Shown here piece by piece: positions 1 through 37,482 of a stretch of DNA of 37,482 nt (the first letter of the stretch is position 1; every line of letters begins with the position of its first letter). The notes under the pieces are model-generated. The model ran no database searches, was not told the origin of the DNA, and saw only the letters and a list, made by a program, of their open reading frames with translations. Source of the DNA: a virus; IMG/VR virus record IMGVR_UViG_3300032309_000421, positions 1 through 37,482 of that record. One strand, given 5' to 3'. Position numbers and translations under genes: made by a program.

Positions 1-123
1 TAATAGAATTGAGCAAGGGCGATTTGAGGACACAAATAAAATGTGGCAAGACCCAACAGATTGTGATTTAGAAATTAAAGCAGGGCTAACGGTAGATCAA
101 GAAGTGCAACTTATTATTAAACA
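1..123. repeat. Terminal overlap, left copy
   Basis: This stretch is identical, base for base, to the last 123 bases of the window. It lies inside a gene and the reading frame runs through it correctly when the ends are joined, so it is best read as an assembly overlap of a circular or circularly permuted genome rather than a true gene duplication. The unique length would be about 37,359 bp. A real terminal repeat of the virion DNA cannot be excluded from sequence alone. Confidence 0.93.
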
Positions 124-469
124 ATTTGAGTTGCCTGATTGGAAAGCACCTACTACTCTTTTGCTTGGGCGTTATCAACCTTGGCATGAAGGACACGAAG
201 CACTAAAGGAGAAAGCGCATGAGCGAACAGAACAAGTTGTTGTTGGGGTCAGAGATACTTACGGCACTAGCGAAAAAGATCCTTTACCCTTTAAGGTGGT
301 TGCTGAGAGGATACGAACCGCCACACGGTCACCTTTTGTTGTAAAAATGCCAAACATTACAAACATAATTTATGGCAGAGATGTTGGATACAAGATTGAA
401 CAAGTAGATTTAGGGGCAGAAATACACGCTATATCTGCAACGCAAAAACGGAAAGAACTAGGAATATGA
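2..469 (+). CDS. APS kinase / nucleotidyltransferase fusion, C-terminal part (continues from 37085)
   Basis: This is the 3' part of a gene whose start lies at 37085; joined across the ends the protein is 247 aa. The part seen here carries the end of the kinase domain and then a nucleotidyltransferase-like domain. The signature is GRYQPWHEGH (about residues 148-157 of the joined protein), the HxGH-type motif of the cytidylyl/adenylyltransferase fold that also includes NadM and ATP sulfurylase. A late ISATQKR motif (from about residue 236) resembles the ISxTxxR motif that closes the active site in that fold. I infer an ATP-dependent adenylyl transfer, possibly onto sulfate, because the N-terminal domain is an APS kinase; the substrate is not shown by the sequence. 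The stop overlaps the next gene by ATGA, so the two are translationally coupled. The Met at 41 is internal and not the start. Confidence 0.85.
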   Translation, partial: NRIEQGRFEDTNKMWQDPTDCDLEIKAGLTVDQEVQLIIKQFELPDWKAPTTLLLGRYQPWHEGHEALKEKAHERTEQVVVGVRDTYGTSEKDPLPFKVVAERIRTATRSPFVVKMPNITNIIYGRDVGYKIEQVDLGAEIHAISATQKRKELGI

Positions 470-672
470 AGGTAACGAAGGCGCGGTCTTTTACTAAGTC
501 TTTAAGTTACAGAATATTTGGAACTCTAAGTTCATGGCTAGTGGTTTATGTAATTACAGGCAAGGGCAGTTTGGCTACGCTCATAGCATTTTGGGAAACG
601 GTAGTAAAGGTTGTTATCTACTATTACCACGAAAGAGCATGGAACAAAATCCGTTGGGGTAGAATTACATAA
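466..672 (+). CDS. DUF2061-type small membrane protein
   Basis: The product is a 68 aa membrane protein. It has the recognisable DUF2061 layout: a basic N-terminus with RSFTKSLSYRIFGT, a hydrophobic segment (about residues 19-32), a second hydrophobic stretch containing FWETVVKVVIYYYHER (about 43-58), and the ending WNKIRWG. The biochemical function of this family is unknown. I recall DUF2061 genes next to cysC (APS kinase) in bacteria, which matches its place here directly after the APS kinase fusion, with a 4-base overlap. The stop also overlaps the start of the minor tail gene (TAATG), so the cassette is embedded in the tail operon. A role in sulfate handling or in tethering the sulfation enzymes to the membrane is inference. 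Confidence 0.8.
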   Translation: MKVTKARSFTKSLSYRIFGTLSSWLVVYVITGKGSLATLIAFWETVVKVVIYYYHERAWNKIRWGRIT

Positions 673-1763
673 TGACTACTACCTATCGGTATATTTTTGC
701 TGACTTATTAACTAATGACATATTAGGAGAACTCCCTTTAACGGGCGTATCTTTTAACCAACAGTTAAACCAGGCTGGAACTTTACAAGGGCATTTACTT
801 TTGTCAGGTCTTAGCGGCTATGAATTTAATGTTGATGCCTCAACCATACCTGGTAAATGTGTTCTTTATGTAGATCGTGATGCCGAAATTGTATGGGGCG
901 GAATCATTTGGTTCCGAGAATACAACAGCGCTGAACAAAAATTGACTATAACAGCCCGTGAATTTGAATCTTATTTTGAGCGCAGACGCATAACAGCAGA
1001 TGTTGTATTTACAAATGTAGATCAATTAACTATTGCTCAATCACTTTTTAACACAGCCCAGGCTGCTGCTTTTGGAAATGTTGGTGTAGTTATTCCTACA
1101 AATACATCAGGTGTTTTAGTTACTAGAACTTATTATGGTTATGAACTTAAACAAGTTTATGCAGCAGTCCAAGATCTATCAAGAGCCTTAGATGGTTTTG
1201 ATTTTCTAATTAATTGCTCCTATTCAAGTGGCAATATAATTAAAACTTTAGAACTAGGTTATCCGCGTATCGGAACTGTTTATGATGTTGATGACCCTTT
1301 TGCAATTGTATTTAATTTTCCTGCTGGCAATATTGTTGAGTATGTATATCCTGAAGATGGGTCAATTGCCGCTAACACGGTTTACGGCATAGGCGCTGGA
1401 TCTAACGAAGGTAAATTACTTTCTACACAATCAGATGCAACCAAATTTACAGAAGGTTGGGCATTGCTAGAAGATCAGGCTAATTATTCAGATGTAACAG
1501 ATGCAACATTACTAGCAGAATTAACCGAAGGCCAAGTAAACGGTTTATCTTACCCGCCAACAACAATAAAAGCAGTTGTTCCTGCTTTTGCTGCTCCTGT
1601 ATTTGGAACTTATAGTATTGGTGATGATGCCCGCATAATAATTACAGATAGCCGTTTTCCAACAGGGCTAGATGAAATTTATAGAATTGTGGGCTTAAAT
1701 ATACAGCCAGGCGAAGATGGACCAGAGCGCGTTACAATTACGCTAACCAACACAAGTAATTGA
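672..1763 (+). CDS. Minor tail protein (Gp37-like)
   Basis: The product is a 363 aa beta-rich protein similar in layout to the ReqiPepy6 Gp37-like minor tail proteins of actinobacterial siphophages: an N-terminal domain with LTGVSFNQQLNQAGTLQGHL, the WGGIIW turn near residue 76, a middle domain and a C-terminal beta domain ending in VTITLTN. Such proteins form part of the tail tip or baseplate hub. It starts at an ATG overlapping the previous stop and is followed closely by another small structural gene and the lysis genes. No enzymatic motif is visible. I am fairly sure of a tail role from context and style, less sure of the exact position in the tail tip. Confidence 0.75.
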   Translation: MTTTYRYIFADLLTNDILGELPLTGVSFNQQLNQAGTLQGHLLLSGLSGYEFNVDASTIPGKCVLYVDRDAEIVWGGIIWFREYNSAEQKLTITAREFESYFERRRITADVVFTNVDQLTIAQSLFNTAQAAAFGNVGVVIPTNTSGVLVTRTYYGYELKQVYAAVQDLSRALDGFDFLINCSYSSGNIIKTLELGYPRIGTVYDVDDPFAIVFNFPAGNIVEYVYPEDGSIAANTVYGIGAGSNEGKLLSTQSDATKFTEGWALLEDQANYSDVTDATLLAELTEGQVNGLSYPPTTIKAVVPAFAAPVFGTYSIGDDARIIITDSRFPTGLDEIYRIVGLNIQPGEDGPERVTITLTNTSN

Positions 1764-7431: not shown

Positions 7432-8096
7432 TTGATTTACAAGACATGGTGATTAAATCTCTTGGGGCTTATGACAGTCAAAGAGATAGATCTAAACAAA
7501 TAGAAATTGGGCCTAGCAGCATTGGAAGTTGTGCGCGTAGGGTCTATCACGACTTAAAACAAACGCCTAAAACTAACGATACTGAAAAACTAGCAGCAAT
7601 CTTAGGTACCTTTATCCATTCTGGTTTAGATAAAGCAATTAGGCGCAATGACCCATTTGAAGATAATTTTTTAATTGAGATTGAGGTAGCAGACGGAGAT
7701 CTTAAAGGGCATTGTGATTTATTTATTAAAGACATTGGTTTAGTTGTTGATTGGAAAACCACAACTAAATCAGGTATGCGTTATTTTGGATCAGATCAAC
7801 AGCGTTTCCAGATTCACACCTATGGTTGGCTATTAGAAAAAAACGGTTATGATGTAAAAGAAGTAGCCCTAGTAGGAATTCCCCGTGATGGCAAGATGCA
7901 AGACATACAAGTTATGCGTGAAAAATATGATCCAGCAATAGCCCAGCAAGGAATTGCTTGGTTAGATGGAATCAAACAAATAGTTGCAACTAATTCCCCT
8001 GCCCCAAGTCCAGAGAAATACGCAAAATGGTGTACAAACTATTGCCCGTATTTTGATAGAACAGGAGAAATAGGTTGCCCAAGTATGACCAAGTAG
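7428..8096 (+). CDS. Cas4/RecB-like PD-(D/E)XK exonuclease with Fe-S cysteines
   Basis: The product is 222 aa. The nuclease core is visible in order: GTFIHSG with His64, GHCDLF with Asp97, VVDWKT with Asp108 and Lys110, and QIHTYGWLL with Gln128, which is RecB motif III. Cys35 near the N-terminus and Cys202, Cys206 and Cys217 at the C-terminus form the four-cysteine set that holds a 4Fe-4S cluster in Cas4 and AddB-type nucleases. It probably resects DNA ends to feed the upstream annealing protein. There is no CRISPR array in the window, so a recombination role is the simpler reading. The gene overlaps the whiB-like gene by 22 bases. Confidence 0.85.
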   Translation: MIDLQDMVIKSLGAYDSQRDRSKQIEIGPSSIGSCARRVYHDLKQTPKTNDTEKLAAILGTFIHSGLDKAIRRNDPFEDNFLIEIEVADGDLKGHCDLFIKDIGLVVDWKTTTKSGMRYFGSDQQRFQIHTYGWLLEKNGYDVKEVALVGIPRDGKMQDIQVMREKYDPAIAQQGIAWLDGIKQIVATNSPAPSPEKYAKWCTNYCPYFDRTGEIGCPSMTK

Positions 8097-8428
8097 ATTG
8101 GGATAATGCAGCGTGTATTGGTATTTACACAGATTTGTTCTATTCAGTAGAAGAAGAAAGATCTGTAATGCAATATCAATACATAAATACATTACGCAGC
8201 ATTTGTGCCGCCTGCCCTATTTGGCGTGATTGCTTAACTTACGCTTTTGCACATGAGCAATACGGAGTTTGGGGAGCGCTTACATCTATGGAAAGAATTG
8301 CAATAAAAGATCCAACAAAAAATCCACATCAGAGGCGCAGAGCATTATTAAATTTACATGACCAAGGAATTTCTTTTGCAGAGATTCAAGAGTGTATGAT
8401 CGCGGCCCAGGCGAAAGAGGCAAAATGA
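8075..8428 (+). CDS. WhiB-family iron-sulfur transcription regulator
   Basis: The product is 117 aa. It has the four WhiB cysteines, Cys14, Cys44, Cys47 and Cys53 (C-x29-C-x2-C-x5-C), followed by the GVWGALT turn (residues 64-70; usual form G[VI]WGG). WhiB proteins bind a 4Fe-4S cluster and act with the sigma factor; they are specific to Actinobacteria and their phages. The start is a TTG at 8075 supported by AGGAG 7 bases upstream; the nearby ATG is in another frame. The C-terminal tail (80-117) is basic then helical and likely contacts DNA. Phage copies may redirect host transcription. Confidence 0.9.
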   Translation: MPKYDQVDWDNAACIGIYTDLFYSVEEERSVMQYQYINTLRSICAACPIWRDCLTYAFAHEQYGVWGALTSMERIAIKDPTKNPHQRRRALLNLHDQGISFAEIQECMIAAQAKEAK

Positions 8429-18129: not shown

Positions 18130-20004
18130 ATGGGTCTGCGTGACCGAATCGCAAGAGCAATAGCAGGAACAGATTTAGAGAAGGCTCCGCGTTTACCTGC
18201 GGGTGCATCAACAATGACTGAACAAGAAATGCGCAATCGCGCTGGTGGTTCTATTGGTCAATCTTATGGAAACAATGTGCCACTACCTAGAAACCCTTGG
18301 CTTGGAATGGTTCCATTTGGACCAGGCTTACCAATCACACCTGGTGCGATTAATCCACTGCGACCAGATGGCAGACCAGATCCGCGTAGATTTGAATACC
18401 AAGTTGCACAAAATATAAATGTAACTGAAACGCGTTTAATATCATTTAAAACATTAAGAGCAGCAGCAGACCAAATAGATATTCTGCGTAGATGTGTAGA
18501 AGTTACTAAATCAAAATTATCAGGACTTGATTGGGATATTGTTCTTGGATCTGACGCATCAGAAAAGATTGCAGCCGAATCAGGCGGAGATCATGTACGC
18601 GCTATGGCTAAAGCCCGCGAGAAGTACACAGATGAAATTAATAGAGTGCGTGAGTTCTGGGAGAATCCAGACCGCGCTAACGGACTTACATTTACAGATT
18701 GGTTAATGATTGCTGCTGAAGAAACTCTTGTGATTGATGCACTTGCAGTATTTCCACAACCAACCGTAGGTGGAGATTTATACGGATTACAGATTTTAGA
18801 TGGTGCAACAATTAAGCCGCTTATTGATGATCGCGGTATGCGCCCTACTCCACCATCTCCTGCTTACCAACAAATTCTTTATGGCTTTCCTAGATCTGAA
18901 TTTAGCGCTAACGCTGATGATCCTGCTGCTGATGGTGAATTTACTGCTGATGATTTAGCATACATGGTGCGCAACCGTAGAACTACAAGCGTTTATGGTT
19001 ATTCACCAGTAGAGCGAGCGCTGCCATTGGCCGATATTTATTTAAGAAGGCAACAATGGATTAGAGCCGAATATACAGACGGTGTTATGCCAGATCTGAT
19101 GTTTACAACTGACGCTGAATGGGGAACTAACCCTGATTTGCTACGCGCTTATGAAAACATTCTAAATGATGATTTGGCTGGACAGACTGAGCAGCGTAAA
19201 CGCGCTCGCTTGCTACCAACTGGATTAACTCCAATATCAAATGAAGGATATGGCGAGAAGTTCAAAGATACATTAGATGATTATTTGATTACATCTATCT
19301 GCGGTCATTTTGGTGTGCAACCTGCTGAGATTGGATTTTCTCCCAAGGGAGGATTAGGCGGTGCTGGTTTCCAAGAAGGCCAGGCTGAAAATGCAGAAGC
19401 AATTGGCATTCAACCATTGGCTAACTGGTACTCAAAGATGATAACTAACCTTTCTTACGCTTATCTTGGTATGCCACGCGAACTTGAATTTAAGTTGATG
19501 ACCTCAAAGCGCTTGGACAATGAGAGTAATGCCCGTAAAGCACAAATTGAAGTTACCTCTGCTGGTAAAACTATTAATGAGCGTAGATCTGAATTAGGTT
19601 TGCCTTTACTAGATACTCCGCAAGCGGACATGCCGTTGCTTGTTGCTGGCGCAGACATATTCTTATTCTCACCAGACGGAATCATTAATGCTAAAGATGT
19701 AATCTCTGCTCCTGCTTTAGAAGGGCCAAACGCTACGGCAATAGCGCCATCTACTCCGAATACAGCCGAGAGCGAACCAGAAGAAGCACCAGGACCTAAA
19801 GAAGAAAATGAGATTGAAGAAGAATTAGACAGGAACACGGTTGATGAAGTTAAAGCCTTTATGAAGTGGGCTAATAAAGGTAAACGCGCCCGCCTGTTTG
19901 AGTTTAAATCTTTAGATCCGATTGTTGGGGAAGCGCTTAACCGTTGTGCATTTGACGGGGATCTTGAAACCGCAAGAGCGCTCGCTAAAGCGTATTTAAC
20001 ATGA
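18130..20004 (+). CDS. Portal protein
   Basis: The product is 624 aa. The core (about residues 90-500) is portal-like, with VEVTKSKLSGLDWDI, a YGYSPVERAL segment and a helical stem region. The N-terminus has a long proline- and glycine-rich arm (about 25-85). The C-terminus has an acidic linker (SEPEEAPGPKEENEIEEEL) and a helical tail. Portal dodecamers form the DNA gate at one capsid vertex. It follows terminase and overlaps the MuF gene by ATGA, the usual order. AAGGAG precedes the start. Confidence 0.85.
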   Translation: MGLRDRIARAIAGTDLEKAPRLPAGASTMTEQEMRNRAGGSIGQSYGNNVPLPRNPWLGMVPFGPGLPITPGAINPLRPDGRPDPRRFEYQVAQNINVTETRLISFKTLRAAADQIDILRRCVEVTKSKLSGLDWDIVLGSDASEKIAAESGGDHVRAMAKAREKYTDEINRVREFWENPDRANGLTFTDWLMIAAEETLVIDALAVFPQPTVGGDLYGLQILDGATIKPLIDDRGMRPTPPSPAYQQILYGFPRSEFSANADDPAADGEFTADDLAYMVRNRRTTSVYGYSPVERALPLADIYLRRQQWIRAEYTDGVMPDLMFTTDAEWGTNPDLLRAYENILNDDLAGQTEQRKRARLLPTGLTPISNEGYGEKFKDTLDDYLITSICGHFGVQPAEIGFSPKGGLGGAGFQEGQAENAEAIGIQPLANWYSKMITNLSYAYLGMPRELEFKLMTSKRLDNESNARKAQIEVTSAGKTINERRSELGLPLLDTPQADMPLLVAGADIFLFSPDGIINAKDVISAPALEGPNATAIAPSTPNTAESEPEEAPGPKEENEIEEELDRNTVDEVKAFMKWANKGKRARLFEFKSLDPIVGEALNRCAFDGDLETARALAKAYLT

Positions 20005-21692
20005 TTTGGGAACGCGCCCTGGAAGCAGATGCGCGTTTAGCGGCTAGAAACTCAGTAAAAATTAGGGCTGCTATTGCTCAATCTTTTAATGCCAAGCGTG
20101 TTTATGAGCAATACCTAACAACTCAACCTGCGGTAAGTAATAAACCTGCGCAAGATCGCGCCCGCGCTAGAGCCTGGGTAATTATGAATGTCCGCGTAAA
20201 CATGGAACCGCTCAAAGAAGTTATGTTAAGAGTTTGGGCTGAAGGATATGTAACTGGAGATGCGTTTGCTGATGAACAAGTGGCTATGGCTAGAGTTGCA
20301 GCCAAGGCTGATGACGGAAGTTATGTAGATTGGTCAAACTGGAAGCCAGGAGATCAAGCCTCTGCTTTATTACTGCGCCCACCTAAAGCATTTCAACAAT
20401 TGCTACAAATGCAAAGCATTACATTTAAAGATTTTAGTGATACAACAGTAAGAGATATTGGTAATGCCATTGCTGACGCTATTGAACTGGGCATGACTGC
20501 TGAAAGATCGGCTAAAAACATTGCAAGGCATGTGGCTAATCCTGCGCGAGCGCTGAGTATCGCAATCACAGAACAGAACCGCGCTATCTCCTACGCAACT
20601 ATTAACCGCTTTAAAGAATCCGAGATTCAGAAGATGGAATGGCAAACATCTAGCCCTTGCGATAAATGCGCACAAAACCAGGGCCAAGTTATTGAAATAG
20701 GCGGAACATTTAACTCAGGATCTACCCAACCACCCGTACACCCGCATTGCCGTTGCGTATTGCTACCCGTAATTCCTGATTTTGATGAATTAGATGCAAC
20801 TCCAACAGGAACAACATTAGTAACTCCGCCTAGCGCACCTGTATTGCCTCCAGTTGTAGCCCCAACCGTAATTGCGCCTAAGCCTGTATCTGTGAATCCA
20901 GGTTTTGCAATCTATGATGAAATGGATAGCCGACCATTCATACCTGGTAAGTGGGAAGTTGTACCTAGAGAGGCTATGTTAGAAATAGAACTACAAAACA
21001 TTATACGCTCACGCACTACAAAGATAGATAGAGCAAGAGCAGAAGTAATTTACATGTTACATGGAAAAAAAATGGATCGGGATTTTGTTGCCAAGGGTGT
21101 TGTTTACAAGAACGGTCCTGTTGAAGTTCAATTTGGTGGTACAGGCCTTGCGGTCAAAGAAGAAATACGCAAACAAGTAATTGAAGAAGTAGAAAAACTA
21201 CAAGTAAGCAATCCTAAAGACCGTGCCGTAGTCCACATCACTAAGGACAGTAAGAATAAATACGGTTGGGCATACCTAGGCCAAGAAGATATATGGGTTG
21301 TTCCTAGAATTGTCAAAGACACAGAATTAAAGGTAGGTAGCGCTGGTAATTTCAAGATGCCAGTAACTCCAACTACGACCCAATTCCAATACACCCTAGC
21401 CCACGAATGGGGTCACATAGTTGATAAACTCAGGGCAGGTTCTACTGGTAGTCAGACCGCAGATACAACTTTAATAATTGGCAAACTTAAAAAACAATTC
21501 CCAGATGCGTTTAAGAGTGGTTACTCAGGCGAAAACACTAAAGAATTCTATGCTGAAATGTTCACCGAGTATTACAGGACCAGTGGGGCAACAACCAACC
21601 CACTTGTTCAGGCTATGGCAGCAGAATTTGGTTGGAAGGTTCCTGAAGGCGTAATTCAACCAACAAACATAGGAGGGGTAATTAATGAGTAA
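20001..21692 (+). CDS. MuF-like head protein fused to an ATLF-like zinc metallopeptidase
   Basis: The product is 563 aa. Residues about 1-265 form the head morphogenesis domain of the SPP1 gp7/Mu gpF family, with CDKC (220-223) and HPHCRC (247-252). A proline-rich linker (about 272-300) leads to a C-terminal domain with HEWGHIVD (His468, Glu469, His472), a zinc-protease HExxH motif, and EFYAEMF (Glu515, Glu519) about 47 residues later. That spacing and the FxAExF pattern resemble the anthrax lethal factor (ATLF) peptidase family. MuF proteins fused to toxin domains are known in phages and prophages. The domain could act in capsid maturation or be delivered into the cell with the DNA. The following small acidic gene could be its partner. 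Confidence 0.78.
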   Translation: MIWERALEADARLAARNSVKIRAAIAQSFNAKRVYEQYLTTQPAVSNKPAQDRARARAWVIMNVRVNMEPLKEVMLRVWAEGYVTGDAFADEQVAMARVAAKADDGSYVDWSNWKPGDQASALLLRPPKAFQQLLQMQSITFKDFSDTTVRDIGNAIADAIELGMTAERSAKNIARHVANPARALSIAITEQNRAISYATINRFKESEIQKMEWQTSSPCDKCAQNQGQVIEIGGTFNSGSTQPPVHPHCRCVLLPVIPDFDELDATPTGTTLVTPPSAPVLPPVVAPTVIAPKPVSVNPGFAIYDEMDSRPFIPGKWEVVPREAMLEIELQNIIRSRTTKIDRARAEVIYMLHGKKMDRDFVAKGVVYKNGPVEVQFGGTGLAVKEEIRKQVIEEVEKLQVSNPKDRAVVHITKDSKNKYGWAYLGQEDIWVVPRIVKDTELKVGSAGNFKMPVTPTTTQFQYTLAHEWGHIVDKLRAGSTGSQTADTTLIIGKLKKQFPDAFKSGYSGENTKEFYAEMFTEYYRTSGATTNPLVQAMAAEFGWKVPEGVIQPTNIGGVINE

Positions 21693-34111: not shown

Positions 34112-34909
34112 ATGGCAACTAATACCCCAGCAGTTTTTTACCGAGGCACCCCTGCCTATGGAACAACCAATGTTTCAAGAGCGGTGTCTAACAAGGCACT
34201 CACATCTAACTTAGCCACGATTACTACCAGCACAAATCATGGTATTACAAATGTAGGAACTTTAGTATCTATCCAAGGCGTAGATGCAAACCTAGACGGT
34301 TTGTATCCTATCTACACAATTCCTGCTAACAACACTTTTACTTTTGTAAAAACAACATCAAATATTACTTCCGCAGCCGTAAGCCCTAACGGGTCTGCTA
34401 TTTTTAACACTTTAACTGCAACAGCAACGGCTGGCACAATATCAAATCAGGCTATTGTAAATAGCACCGCAATTATTACTACAACCTCTGCGCATAGTTT
34501 GGCTATTGGAGATATTGTTAGAGTTAATACAGGCACTACTGGAACAGACGGAACTTTTGTTGTATCAGCCGTACCAACAACCTCTATATTTACTTTTGTA
34601 ACCTCTACTGCAACCCTAGCCTCAGCAGCAGTTTCGCAAGGTTGTTTTGCTAAGTTCCCTGATGTTTATACTCTCGCAGCATCTACAAACGGCATTGTAA
34701 CTAACGCGGTGTTTGCTAACCCAACAGCAAGTAGCGCAACAGTAAACCTAACAATAGATAATGTTTCAGTAGCAGAAAACTTAACGGTTGCAGCAAACGC
34801 TTCTACCTTTATTGACATTAAACAATATTTTGCAACAACAAAAAAGATTTCTGTTGGAACAAGTATTCCGCAAATAGATTGTCAAATCTCAGGCATTACG
34901 ATAGTTTAA
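34112..34909 (+). CDS. Beta-repeat tail protein
   Basis: The product is 265 aa with two similar beta units: LATITTSTNHGITNVGTLVSI (about residues 34-54) and AIITTTSAHSLAIGDIVRV (about 127-145), each followed by a TFVKTT or TFVTST strand. Such tandem units are typical of tail fibre stalks. The C-terminal part (about 190-265) is a third beta domain. It probably links the baseplate to the adhesin that follows. Confidence 0.62.
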   Translation: MATNTPAVFYRGTPAYGTTNVSRAVSNKALTSNLATITTSTNHGITNVGTLVSIQGVDANLDGLYPIYTIPANNTFTFVKTTSNITSAAVSPNGSAIFNTLTATATAGTISNQAIVNSTAIITTTSAHSLAIGDIVRVNTGTTGTDGTFVVSAVPTTSIFTFVTSTATLASAAVSQGCFAKFPDVYTLAASTNGIVTNAVFANPTASSATVNLTIDNVSVAENLTVAANASTFIDIKQYFATTKKISVGTSIPQIDCQISGITIV

Positions 34910-34920
34910 GGGGTAAGCAA

Positions 34921-35901
34921 ATGGGTCTATCGTCATTACCAGCAGCAGCAGGTTTAAGTTACAACCGTGTTGTTTTTTTATCGTCAGGCACTTTTACATT
35001 ACCAAAAACTGCATTTAATAAGTTTGATTGCGTATTAGTAAGCGGTGGTGGCGGTGGCGGTGGCGCAAACAACACTACTCCCCGAAGGTCAATGGGTGGT
35101 TCAGGTGCGGCTGCATATTTTCACGATATTTTTTGTTCTAACGAAACTACATTAACGGTTACGGTTGGGGCTGGTGGTACTGGTAGTGCTGCTGGTACAC
35201 AAGGCGGACAAGGAAACGAAAGCACGGTAACGGGTCTAGCAGGTAACGGGGCTTCAACTTCTTTATCAAGTGGAAGTGCGTCAGGGGGCAAAATAGCAAA
35301 CGGTGGTGGCTCGCAAGGAATTATTTCACCGCAGGTTGCTAGAAATATAACTAATAATGGTGGTACTAATCCTGCTAGATCTGTAGCAGCAGGTTGGGGT
35401 TTTGGCGTATCTGCTTTTGCGTCAGGTCAAAGATATAATGGTGGTTATCCTGGAGTTAATTTAAACATATTTGGTTCAACTGCGGGTGGTAGTGGCTCAA
35501 CTATACGGTCTTACATTAATGGCGCTACTACTAGTGCAGATGCTAACCAGAGAGGCGGAACAGGTGGTCCAATACCACTTTTAGGTAACCTATTACATGC
35601 CGCTAAAGGTAGTGATGGAAGTGCTGGACAGACCGCAGGTGGGCTTGCTGTTGCAAATACTTATTTTGCTGGCACAGGTGGCGGAAGTGAATATGGTGGA
35701 GTTCAAACTGGGCTTGGCGGTGGCGGTGGGGCTGGTGGGCAATCTAATAATTCTGGTATTGCTTCGGGTAATGGTGGAGCAGGTTCCGCAAACTCAGGTG
35801 GTGGCGGTGGTGCTGGCGGGCAAAATCAGGCTGGTGGCTCATTATTAGGTACAGGTGCTAATGGTGGTTCAGGTTTTGTAGTTATAGGATATTGGGGATA
35901 A
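34921..35901 (+). CDS. Polyglycine tail adhesin (receptor-binding candidate)
   Basis: The start at 34921 is supported by AAGGGGTAAGCAA; a longer frame from 34879 overlaps the previous gene. The 326 aa product has an N-terminal beta unit (YNRVVFLSSGTFTLPKTAF, SGGGGGGGANN) and many glycine-rich stretches (TVGAGGTGSAAGTQGG; GGGGGAGGQSNNSG; SGGGGGAGG). This is the glycine-rich repeat design of phage adhesins, in which polyglycine-II-like sandwiches display variable loops. It is the best candidate for host recognition. Confidence 0.75.
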   Translation: MGLSSLPAAAGLSYNRVVFLSSGTFTLPKTAFNKFDCVLVSGGGGGGGANNTTPRRSMGGSGAAAYFHDIFCSNETTLTVTVGAGGTGSAAGTQGGQGNESTVTGLAGNGASTSLSSGSASGGKIANGGGSQGIISPQVARNITNNGGTNPARSVAAGWGFGVSAFASGQRYNGGYPGVNLNIFGSTAGGSGSTIRSYINGATTSADANQRGGTGGPIPLLGNLLHAAKGSDGSAGQTAGGLAVANTYFAGTGGGSEYGGVQTGLGGGGGAGGQSNNSGIASGNGGAGSANSGGGGGAGGQNQAGGSLLGTGANGGSGFVVIGYWG

Positions 35902-36281: not shown

Positions 36282-37085
36282 ATGAAAAGTTATTATTTTT
36301 TGGCGGGCTTACCCCGCACAGGCAACACATTACTTTCTAGTATATTAAATCAAAACCCCCTTATACATAGTTCCCCGTTAAGTCCAATAAACGGAATATT
36401 TTGGCAACATGAGCAAGTAATCCAAAACGCGGAACATGTCAAAAGATTAGATGATAAAACTGGATTAAATAATGTTATGGCTAAACTATTAGATAATTAT
36501 TATGACAACATTACAAAGCCAGTCATTATAGATAGAGAAAAATCGTGGGGAATTGCCCCTAACTTTAATATGTTACAAAAATATGTAACACCTAATCCTA
36601 AAATTATATTTACTACAAGACCCGTAATTGAAATACTTACCTCTTTTATTAACATTATTCCTAAAGAAAATTCAAGTGTAGATTTAGAAATGTCGCAAAG
36701 TGAATGGACTTACAAAAATTATTTAACCCTAAACGATAACCGTTGTGATTATCTTATGCGACCTTATGGGCAGATAGATAGATTGCTTACAACAGTAAAC
36801 ATGATGCAACAAAACAAAGACAACTTTTGTTTAATTAAATATGATGAAATAATAAATACCCCGCAAGAGGCTATGGATAAAATCTATAACTTTTTAGAAT
36901 TACCTAACTACACGCATGATTTTAATAATATAGAAAAAGTAGAAATAGATAATGATGTAATGGCAGGGCTACCACCAAACATGCACGAAATTAGACCGCA
37001 ACTTAAAAAAATTAGTCAAGACCCTAAAGAGGTTTTGTCAGAATATGTAATTAGCAAATACTCAAACATAGGCTGGGAGGCGTAA
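36282..37085 (+). CDS. Sulfotransferase
   Basis: The product is 267 aa with the PAPS-binding motifs in place: the 5'-phosphosulfate loop LPRTGNT (Leu10-Thr16) after a strand (YYFLAG), and the 3'-phosphate motif IIFTTRPVIEILTSF with Arg113 and Ser121. KYDEIINTP and the C-terminal YNFLELPNY are also typical of the family. It transfers sulfate from PAPS to an acceptor, which the sequence does not identify. GCGGAGG is 5 bases upstream. Two sampled 60-base rows in the gene (36481 and 36601) have only 15 and 14 G+C, against 24 in a capsid row (24661), so recent gain is possible. The stop overlaps the next start (TAATG). Confidence 0.88.
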   Translation: MKSYYFLAGLPRTGNTLLSSILNQNPLIHSSPLSPINGIFWQHEQVIQNAEHVKRLDDKTGLNNVMAKLLDNYYDNITKPVIIDREKSWGIAPNFNMLQKYVTPNPKIIFTTRPVIEILTSFINIIPKENSSVDLEMSQSEWTYKNYLTLNDNRCDYLMRPYGQIDRLLTTVNMMQQNKDNFCLIKYDEIINTPQEAMDKIYNFLELPNYTHDFNNIEKVEIDNDVMAGLPPNMHEIRPQLKKISQDPKEVLSEYVISKYSNIGWEA

Positions 37086-37482
37086 TGATAATACAAATAA
37101 TAGGACAGGCTGGTTCTGGTAAAACAATATTGGCGGGAGCGTTAGCAGACCGCATAAATGCTATACACATAAACGCAGATAAAGTTAGGGCAGGGTTAAA
37201 CAAAGATTTAGGTTTTGAGTTAAAAGACCGTATTGAAAATGCAAGACGACTTGGCGAATTAGCAAGACTATTAGATAACGAAATAGTTATAGTAGATTTT
37301 ATATGCCCAACAAACGAAACTAGAGAGGCGTTTGGCAAGCCTGATATTTTAATTTGGGTTAATAGAATTGAGCAAGGGCGATTTGAGGACACAAATAAAA
37401 TGTGGCAAGACCCAACAGATTGTGATTTAGAAATTAAAGCAGGGCTAACGGTAGATCAAGAAGTGCAACTTATTATTAAACA
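37085..37482 (+). CDS. APS kinase / nucleotidyltransferase fusion, N-terminal part (continues at 2)
   Basis: The N-terminal domain is APS kinase (CysC-like): Walker A GQAGSGKT (residues 7-14), NADKVRAGLNKDLGF (30-44; the usual DGD is NAD here), DRIENARR (48-55) and VIVDFICPTNETR. It should phosphorylate APS to PAPS, the sulfate donor used by sulfotransferases. The frame continues without a break across the repeat into position 2 and ends at 469. The ATG overlaps the sulfotransferase stop, so donor synthesis and use are co-translated. The AlaAsp in place of GlyAsp in the kinase motif is a change worth noting but may not abolish activity. Confidence 0.85.
   Translation, partial: MIIQIIGQAGSGKTILAGALADRINAIHINADKVRAGLNKDLGFELKDRIENARRLGELARLLDNEIVIVDFICPTNETREAFGKPDILIWVNRIEQGRFEDTNKMWQDPTDCDLEIKAGLTVDQEVQLIIK
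37360..37482. repeat. Terminal overlap, right copy
   Basis: This is identical to bases 1-123. Joining the copies restores one 247-codon gene and a circular map. Confidence 0.93.

Follow-up and report, generated by a model that had tools for sequence, protein, structure and literature searches.

A phage gene, here called K, that encodes an APS-kinase-like domain fused to a small HxGH nucleotidyltransferase most plausibly specifies a compact PAPS synthase feeding the sulfotransferase encoded by the overlapping upstream gene (probability roughly 60%), a reading in which both catalytic steps and the substrate are deduced from genomic context and structure. The C-terminal nucleotidyltransferase would combine sulfate and ATP to give APS, the N-terminal domain would phosphorylate APS to PAPS, and the sulfotransferase would move the sulfuryl group from PAPS to an acceptor during infection. 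Given that the cassette lies in the tail operon, this acceptor may be a protein of the tail or a glycan on the surface of the host. In a host that does not activate sulfate, the entire pathway would have to come from the phage. A broader proposal, which is somewhat favored but held a little less firmly, is that the nucleotidyltransferase, of ~110 aa and NadM/PPAT-like ancestry, represents a third class of ATP sulfurylase that supplies SAR11 and other streamlined marine bacteria with the sulfate-activating (or APS-consuming) enzyme they are missing and that many phages carry joined to an APS kinase, in a single-gene PAPS synthase that serves sulfation.

The window (the entire viral contig of 37,482 nucleotides under analysis) is a circular phage contig, the ends of which join through an exact match between bases 1-123 and the last 123 bases (37360-37482). 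Across the junction, K reads as a single stop-free frame of 247 aa (37085-37482 followed by 124-469). Two other contigs carry unbroken K in the same gene order (L001 and L002, with K proteins that are 89% and 86% identical, respectively), which bears out the fusion that the initial annotation had assembled across the joined ends. Its placement of the cassette within a tail operon also stands: upstream are genes for a tape measure, a Dit/minor tail protein, and a Gly-rich tail protein, and downstream are those for a minor tail protein and an endolysin. The WhiB gene makes an actinobacterial host probable, and the window is thus probably an actinophage. The acI actinobacteria, which are abundant in freshwater, are without assimilatory sulfate reduction (PMC5301498). 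Elsewhere in the window (20001-21692), a Mu F-like head protein (PF04233) has an extra C-terminal region that scores 17.1 bits against PF07737 (cut-off 27.4), a resemblance that is probably due to chance.

Table 1. Positions of the cassette genes and of other features in the window
Feature	Position	Strand	Details
Gly-rich tail protein, upstream of the cassette	34879..35901	+	PF21722; phrog_863 tail fiber assembly
Sulfotransferase, 267 aa	36282..37085	+	PF13469/PF00685, phrog_27463; PAPS motifs LPRTGNT and R-PVIEILT-S
K, APS-kinase-like domain of the N-terminal part (joined residues 1-~137), interrupted at the contig end	37085..37482	+	phrog_10255
Terminal repeat	1..123	.	exact copy of 37360-37482; circular or circularly permuted contig
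K, C-terminal part, HxGH nucleotidyltransferase	2..469	+	GRYQPWHEGH ... PNITNIIYGRDVGY ... ISATQKR; bases 1-123 duplicate the last 123 of the window
DUF2061 small membrane protein, 68 aa	466..672	+	PF09834 1.4e-16, 61.1 bits (cut-off 23.1)
Minor tail protein, just downstream of the DUF2061 gene	672..1763	+	phrog_1885
WhiB-family regulator	8075..8428	+	PF02467 4.6e-12

Relatives of K are encoded on at least 598 viral stretches and make up a single conserved family in which many residues are invariant, a pattern that is not a product of chance. The whole of K is matched by phrog_10255 and the sulfotransferase by phrog_27463, both of which are phage families already known, yet unnamed and unexplained.

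The sulfotransferase matches PF13469 (1.6e-13, 51.9 bits, cut-off 27) and PF00685 (1.4e-9), and the residues of its 5′-PSB motif PRTGNT and of its 3′-PB element R113...S121 are invariant among its relatives. Its stop codon shares one base with the K start (TAATG). The presence of both PAPS motifs and the overlap with the next gene are therefore confirmed as first described. A tyrosylprotein sulfotransferase identity was considered and set aside: the similarity reaches an E value of 0.29 only, and the search against solved structures returned no significant match. Tyrosine sulfation is accordingly not claimed.

The N-terminal half of K passes the Pfam threshold for APS kinase (PF01583, 3.5e-15, 56.8 bits, cut-off 21.1). 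An AlphaFold model of the L001 homologue, built from a 66-sequence alignment (mean pLDDT 92.6), retrieves APS kinases as all of its top 48 Foldseek matches. VIA Z scores are ~16-18 against APS kinases, compared with 15.7 for gluconate kinase and 13.5 for shikimate kinase, and the match to the P. chrysogenum APS kinase has a VIA Z of 18.0 (rmsd 2.2 over 142 residues). The P-loop, D32, R35, F44, R49, and R55 are invariant in the 66 K sequences and align with the DNIR..LN..LGF..DR positions that make up the APS-contact signature of canonical CysC. K thus shares its fold, P-loop, and LGF..DR signature with CysC/APS kinases (PF01583; solved examples include 1m7g and 2ofw) but departs from them in the lid, where the canonical KGLYKKARAGEIKxFTGID is replaced by RFEDTNxxWxxP, and its score of 60.3 bits falls short of the 138.7 bits that the NCBIfam equivalog for apsK (TIGR00455) sets as its cut-off. 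The domain that had been annotated as a clear APS kinase is therefore better named APS-kinase-like: Pfam, the fold, the P-loop, and the APS-contact positions agree with that assignment, whereas the lid and the equivalog score do not, and the divergent lid means that the kinase substrate could differ.

The C-terminal half matches PF01467 narrowly (2.3e-4, 21.8 bits, cut-off 21). Judged by its sequence, it is a member of neither known class of ATP sulfurylase (Sat or CysDN), as K has no match to PF01747 (Sat) or CysD and leaves only a trace against TIGR00339 (E 0.09). In sequence and predicted fold, it resembles NMN and phosphopantetheine adenylyltransferases. Its nearest solved proteins by sequence profile are NadM-type NMN adenylyltransferases (6e-11), and the model of a stand-alone cellular homologue (pLDDT 93.9) is a minimal HUP nucleotidyltransferase for which PPAT and NMNAT tie as fold matches at Z 11-12. 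Among the matches listed, the fold neighbors include no ATP sulfurylase, which excludes nothing. GRxQPxHxGH, R42, PN, YGRxVG, and ISxTxxR are invariant or nearly so in phage and bacterial members, as expected of an active site. With NadM-type NMNAT and PPAT/CoaD, the domain has in common the minimal HUP fold, GRxQPxHxGH, and ISxTxxR; it is set apart by its own PNI..xYGR(D/G)VGY segment, by its sulfur gene context, and by a score far below the NadM equivalog cut-off (TIGR01527, 23.2 bits vs 181.2). Its likeness to Sat (PF01747) and CysDN lies in the proposed reaction and pathway position, while by family it is a different protein. The initial annotation had argued that ATP sulfurylase belongs to the same fold and that the domain might be one; what survives of this argument is superfamily kinship, the closest relatives being of the NadM/PPAT type. 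The associated suggestion that the domain acts on sulfate, such that K alone would give PAPS, instead gains its support from a fusion to CysC, operons in which the domain takes the cysDN(C) position, aprABM neighbors, and the enrichment of sulfotransferases near K.

In its proposed net reaction, with both steps on one chain, K is like the bifunctional PAPS synthases (human PAPSS1/2 and the Aquifex Sat-APS kinase), and it shares the kinase-first order with PAPSS1. It differs from them in length (247 aa vs ~600), in its ~110-aa HxGH nucleotidyltransferase of another subfamily, and in the shortened and changed kinase lid. If the proposal is correct, K would be a very small PAPS synthase for use in biotechnology.

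A genome scan with the K alignment as query recovered homologues, either full-length or split, in SAR11, SAR116, SAR86, further alphaproteobacteria, and a small number of additional groups. In two loci (L214, from ~5989, and L241, from ~4866), the nucleotidyltransferase is fused N-terminally to a canonical CysC (PF01583 3.4e-64), the reverse of the domain order in phage K. These two are the closest cellular relatives of the window’s phage clade and its sister in the nucleotidyltransferase tree (100/92), which was computed from 119 columns, has long branches, and is midpoint rooted. In five genomes of one marine alphaproteobacterial order (L211, L213, and L254-L256), the nucleotidyltransferase is the last gene of an operon that runs CbiX-CobA-CysI-CysH-DUF2061-kinase-nucleotidyltransferase, and it occupies the operon place expected of cysD, cysN, and cysC. 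CysH was found in 6/6 genomes searched from this order, the nucleotidyltransferase in 5/6, Sat in 1/6, and CysD in 0/6; within the five operon-bearing genomes, CysD is absent from all and Sat from four. The Sat of genome G051 from this order lies inside a sugar cluster with a NeuB-like gene, which was recognized by eye. A Sat homologue of ~355 aa occurs in a few SAR11 and other marine alphaproteobacteria (L251:1793-2857, L252, and L253), and that of L251 adjoins NeuB-like and surface-polysaccharide-type genes in a sugar cluster; this arrangement suggests a separate Sat for surface sulfation in such marine genomes.

A third sulfur context is provided by apr genes. In 23 of 80 cellular loci, from SAR11 and related bacteria, aprA, aprB, and a putative aprM stand beside the nucleotidyltransferase in three arrangements. 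The first two are assigned by family matches (aprA, TIGR02061 1.9e-298; aprB, TIGR02060 1.1e-56), and the third conserved gene, which has no family match, is taken for aprM. SAR11 possesses aprAB, and most of its members are reported to be without an ATP sulfurylase (PMC10356861); incomplete sulfur pathways have been called core in Pelagibacteraceae (PMC12636525). With the nucleotidyltransferase as a candidate enzyme beside aprABM, this ATP sulfurylase gap becomes testable. Neither PF01747 nor CysD was detected in 43 of 50 genomes that bear the nucleotidyltransferase, absences that are weakened by the incompleteness of many of these genomes (MAG/SAG), and K and CysD occur together in some alphaproteobacteria from soil. 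A gene of ~116 aa that has no Pfam match is conserved alongside aprABM, at L239:2322-2669 and in 22 further apr loci, and might encode a novel component of the sulfite-oxidation module.

In phages, the neighbors of K are biased toward sulfotransferases. Across 50 phage records, 9 of the 12 PF13469 (Sulfotransfer_3) genes are located no more than 2 kb from K, in ~9% of the sequence (p ~7e-8, or ~6e-7 when one of a closely related pair is dropped). Sulfotransferase families top the Pfam tally of upstream neighbors and do not appear among the leading families on the downstream side. The association is real and not universal. A Pfam-recognized sulfotransferase lies within 3 kb in 14 of 56 non-redundant K loci (window included) and a DUF2061 gene in 23, and among the 80 nearest of the at least 598 viral loci, a relative of the window’s sulfotransferase is found in 15 and DUF2061 in 74, nearly always directly 3′ of K. 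The initial annotation had allowed for a trio that never recurs and for an inactive kinase paired with an unrelated nucleotidyltransferase; what was found is a sulfotransferase-K-DUF2061 trio that recurs in L001, L002, and other loci and a kinase that keeps its P-loop and APS-contact positions. The complete trio is nevertheless not the rule, as about three quarters of the non-redundant K loci have no recognized sulfotransferase close by.

The adjacency of DUF2061 to K, as originally described, is real, and the two genes overlap by 4 bases (ATGA). Of the 53 examined viral loci that have a WhiB-cluster gene, 47 also contain DUF2061. DUF2061 was also considered as a general sulfur gene, a role that was rejected because it occurs in 22 of 80 proteobacterial genomes with mixed neighbors (catalase/OxyR and others) and with no cys genes among its top neighbor families there. 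Near the same place in other K phages are genes for 2OG-Fe(II) oxygenases, Asp/Asn hydroxylases, tryptophan halogenases, or glycosyltransferases, so that the neighborhood of K looks like an island of modifying enzymes.

Several isolate phages, namely the Stenotrophomonas phages Bhz60 and DLP_6 and Clavibacter phage 33, carry K with no annotated sulfotransferase nearby, and for K in Bhz60 and Clavibacter phage 33, another explanation or another use of PAPS is needed. In these two (L081 and L083), genes for a cysteine dioxygenase and a MazG-like protein are close to K, and in Bhz60, K is directly 3′ of a NADAR-family gene.

That last neighbor bears on the possibility that the two domains handle some other adenylylated or cytidylylated compound, with an NMNAT- or PPAT-like transferase paired with a nucleotide 3′-kinase and the sulfotransferase being incidental. 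Such a pair could serve NAD or CoA metabolism or a CDP-activated phosphoramidate, of the kind made via Cj1415/Cj1416 for the Campylobacter capsule. The profile proximity to NadM, the tied PPAT and NMNAT fold scores, and the divergent kinase lid would all fit this explanation, which is nonetheless considered unlikely, as the CysC fusion, the cysI-cysH operons, the aprABM neighbors, and the sulfotransferase enrichment are all sulfur-specific and the score falls far short of the NMNAT equivalog cut-offs (23 vs 181 bits). An active kinase that converts host APS to PAPS beside a degenerate or structural remnant is very improbable: the evidence for the kinase does stand alone, its P-loop being intact though its lid is odd, but the HxGH, R42, PN, YGRxVG, and ISxTxxR elements of the second domain are invariant or nearly so in both phage and cellular members, as in an active site.

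The direction and purpose of the reaction could also differ from those proposed. The nucleotidyltransferase might run mainly in the catabolic sense (APS + PPi to ATP + sulfate), as Sat does after AprAB, and instead of sulfation, the phage gene might serve to remove or rebalance APS/PAPS or, as a classical “cysC” auxiliary metabolic gene, support the host in making cysteine. The aprABM context in SAR11 is compatible with this alternative. Viral cysC genes are known and have been interpreted as contributing to assimilatory sulfate reduction (PMC9529941, PMC10914622), unlike the sulfation proposed here for K; the viral CysC proteins of the former study have 109-135 residues modeled on APS kinases, and the words “nucleotidyltransferase” and “sulfotransferase” are both absent from the latter. 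The K family probably overlaps these genes. The enrichment of sulfotransferases by K and the lack of a CysH homologue beside K in any K-bearing viral locus examined argue against a catabolic or cysteine-directed role, which is regarded as rather improbable. Under the preferred reading of K as a PAPS synthase, many of the common phage “cysC” genes may make PAPS for sulfation rather than aid cysteine synthesis, and a phage that supplies both a sulfotransferase and the means to activate sulfate could add sulfate to a virion protein or to the host surface even in hosts unable to activate it. A search of the open-access literature turned up no paper that fits a phage route to PAPS or a new ATP sulfurylase.

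Some larger phages (L091, L093, L095, L100, and L103) encode two tandem P-loop proteins of ~280 aa with an RSGST motif just upstream of K. These were evaluated as sulfotransferases and excluded from the sulfotransferase counts, as their profile match covers the P-loop only (probability 66%) and they match no family, those of sulfotransferases included; they are possibly a new sulfotransferase-like family. In the same group of phages, a gene resembling AhpC/TSA peroxiredoxins follows K.
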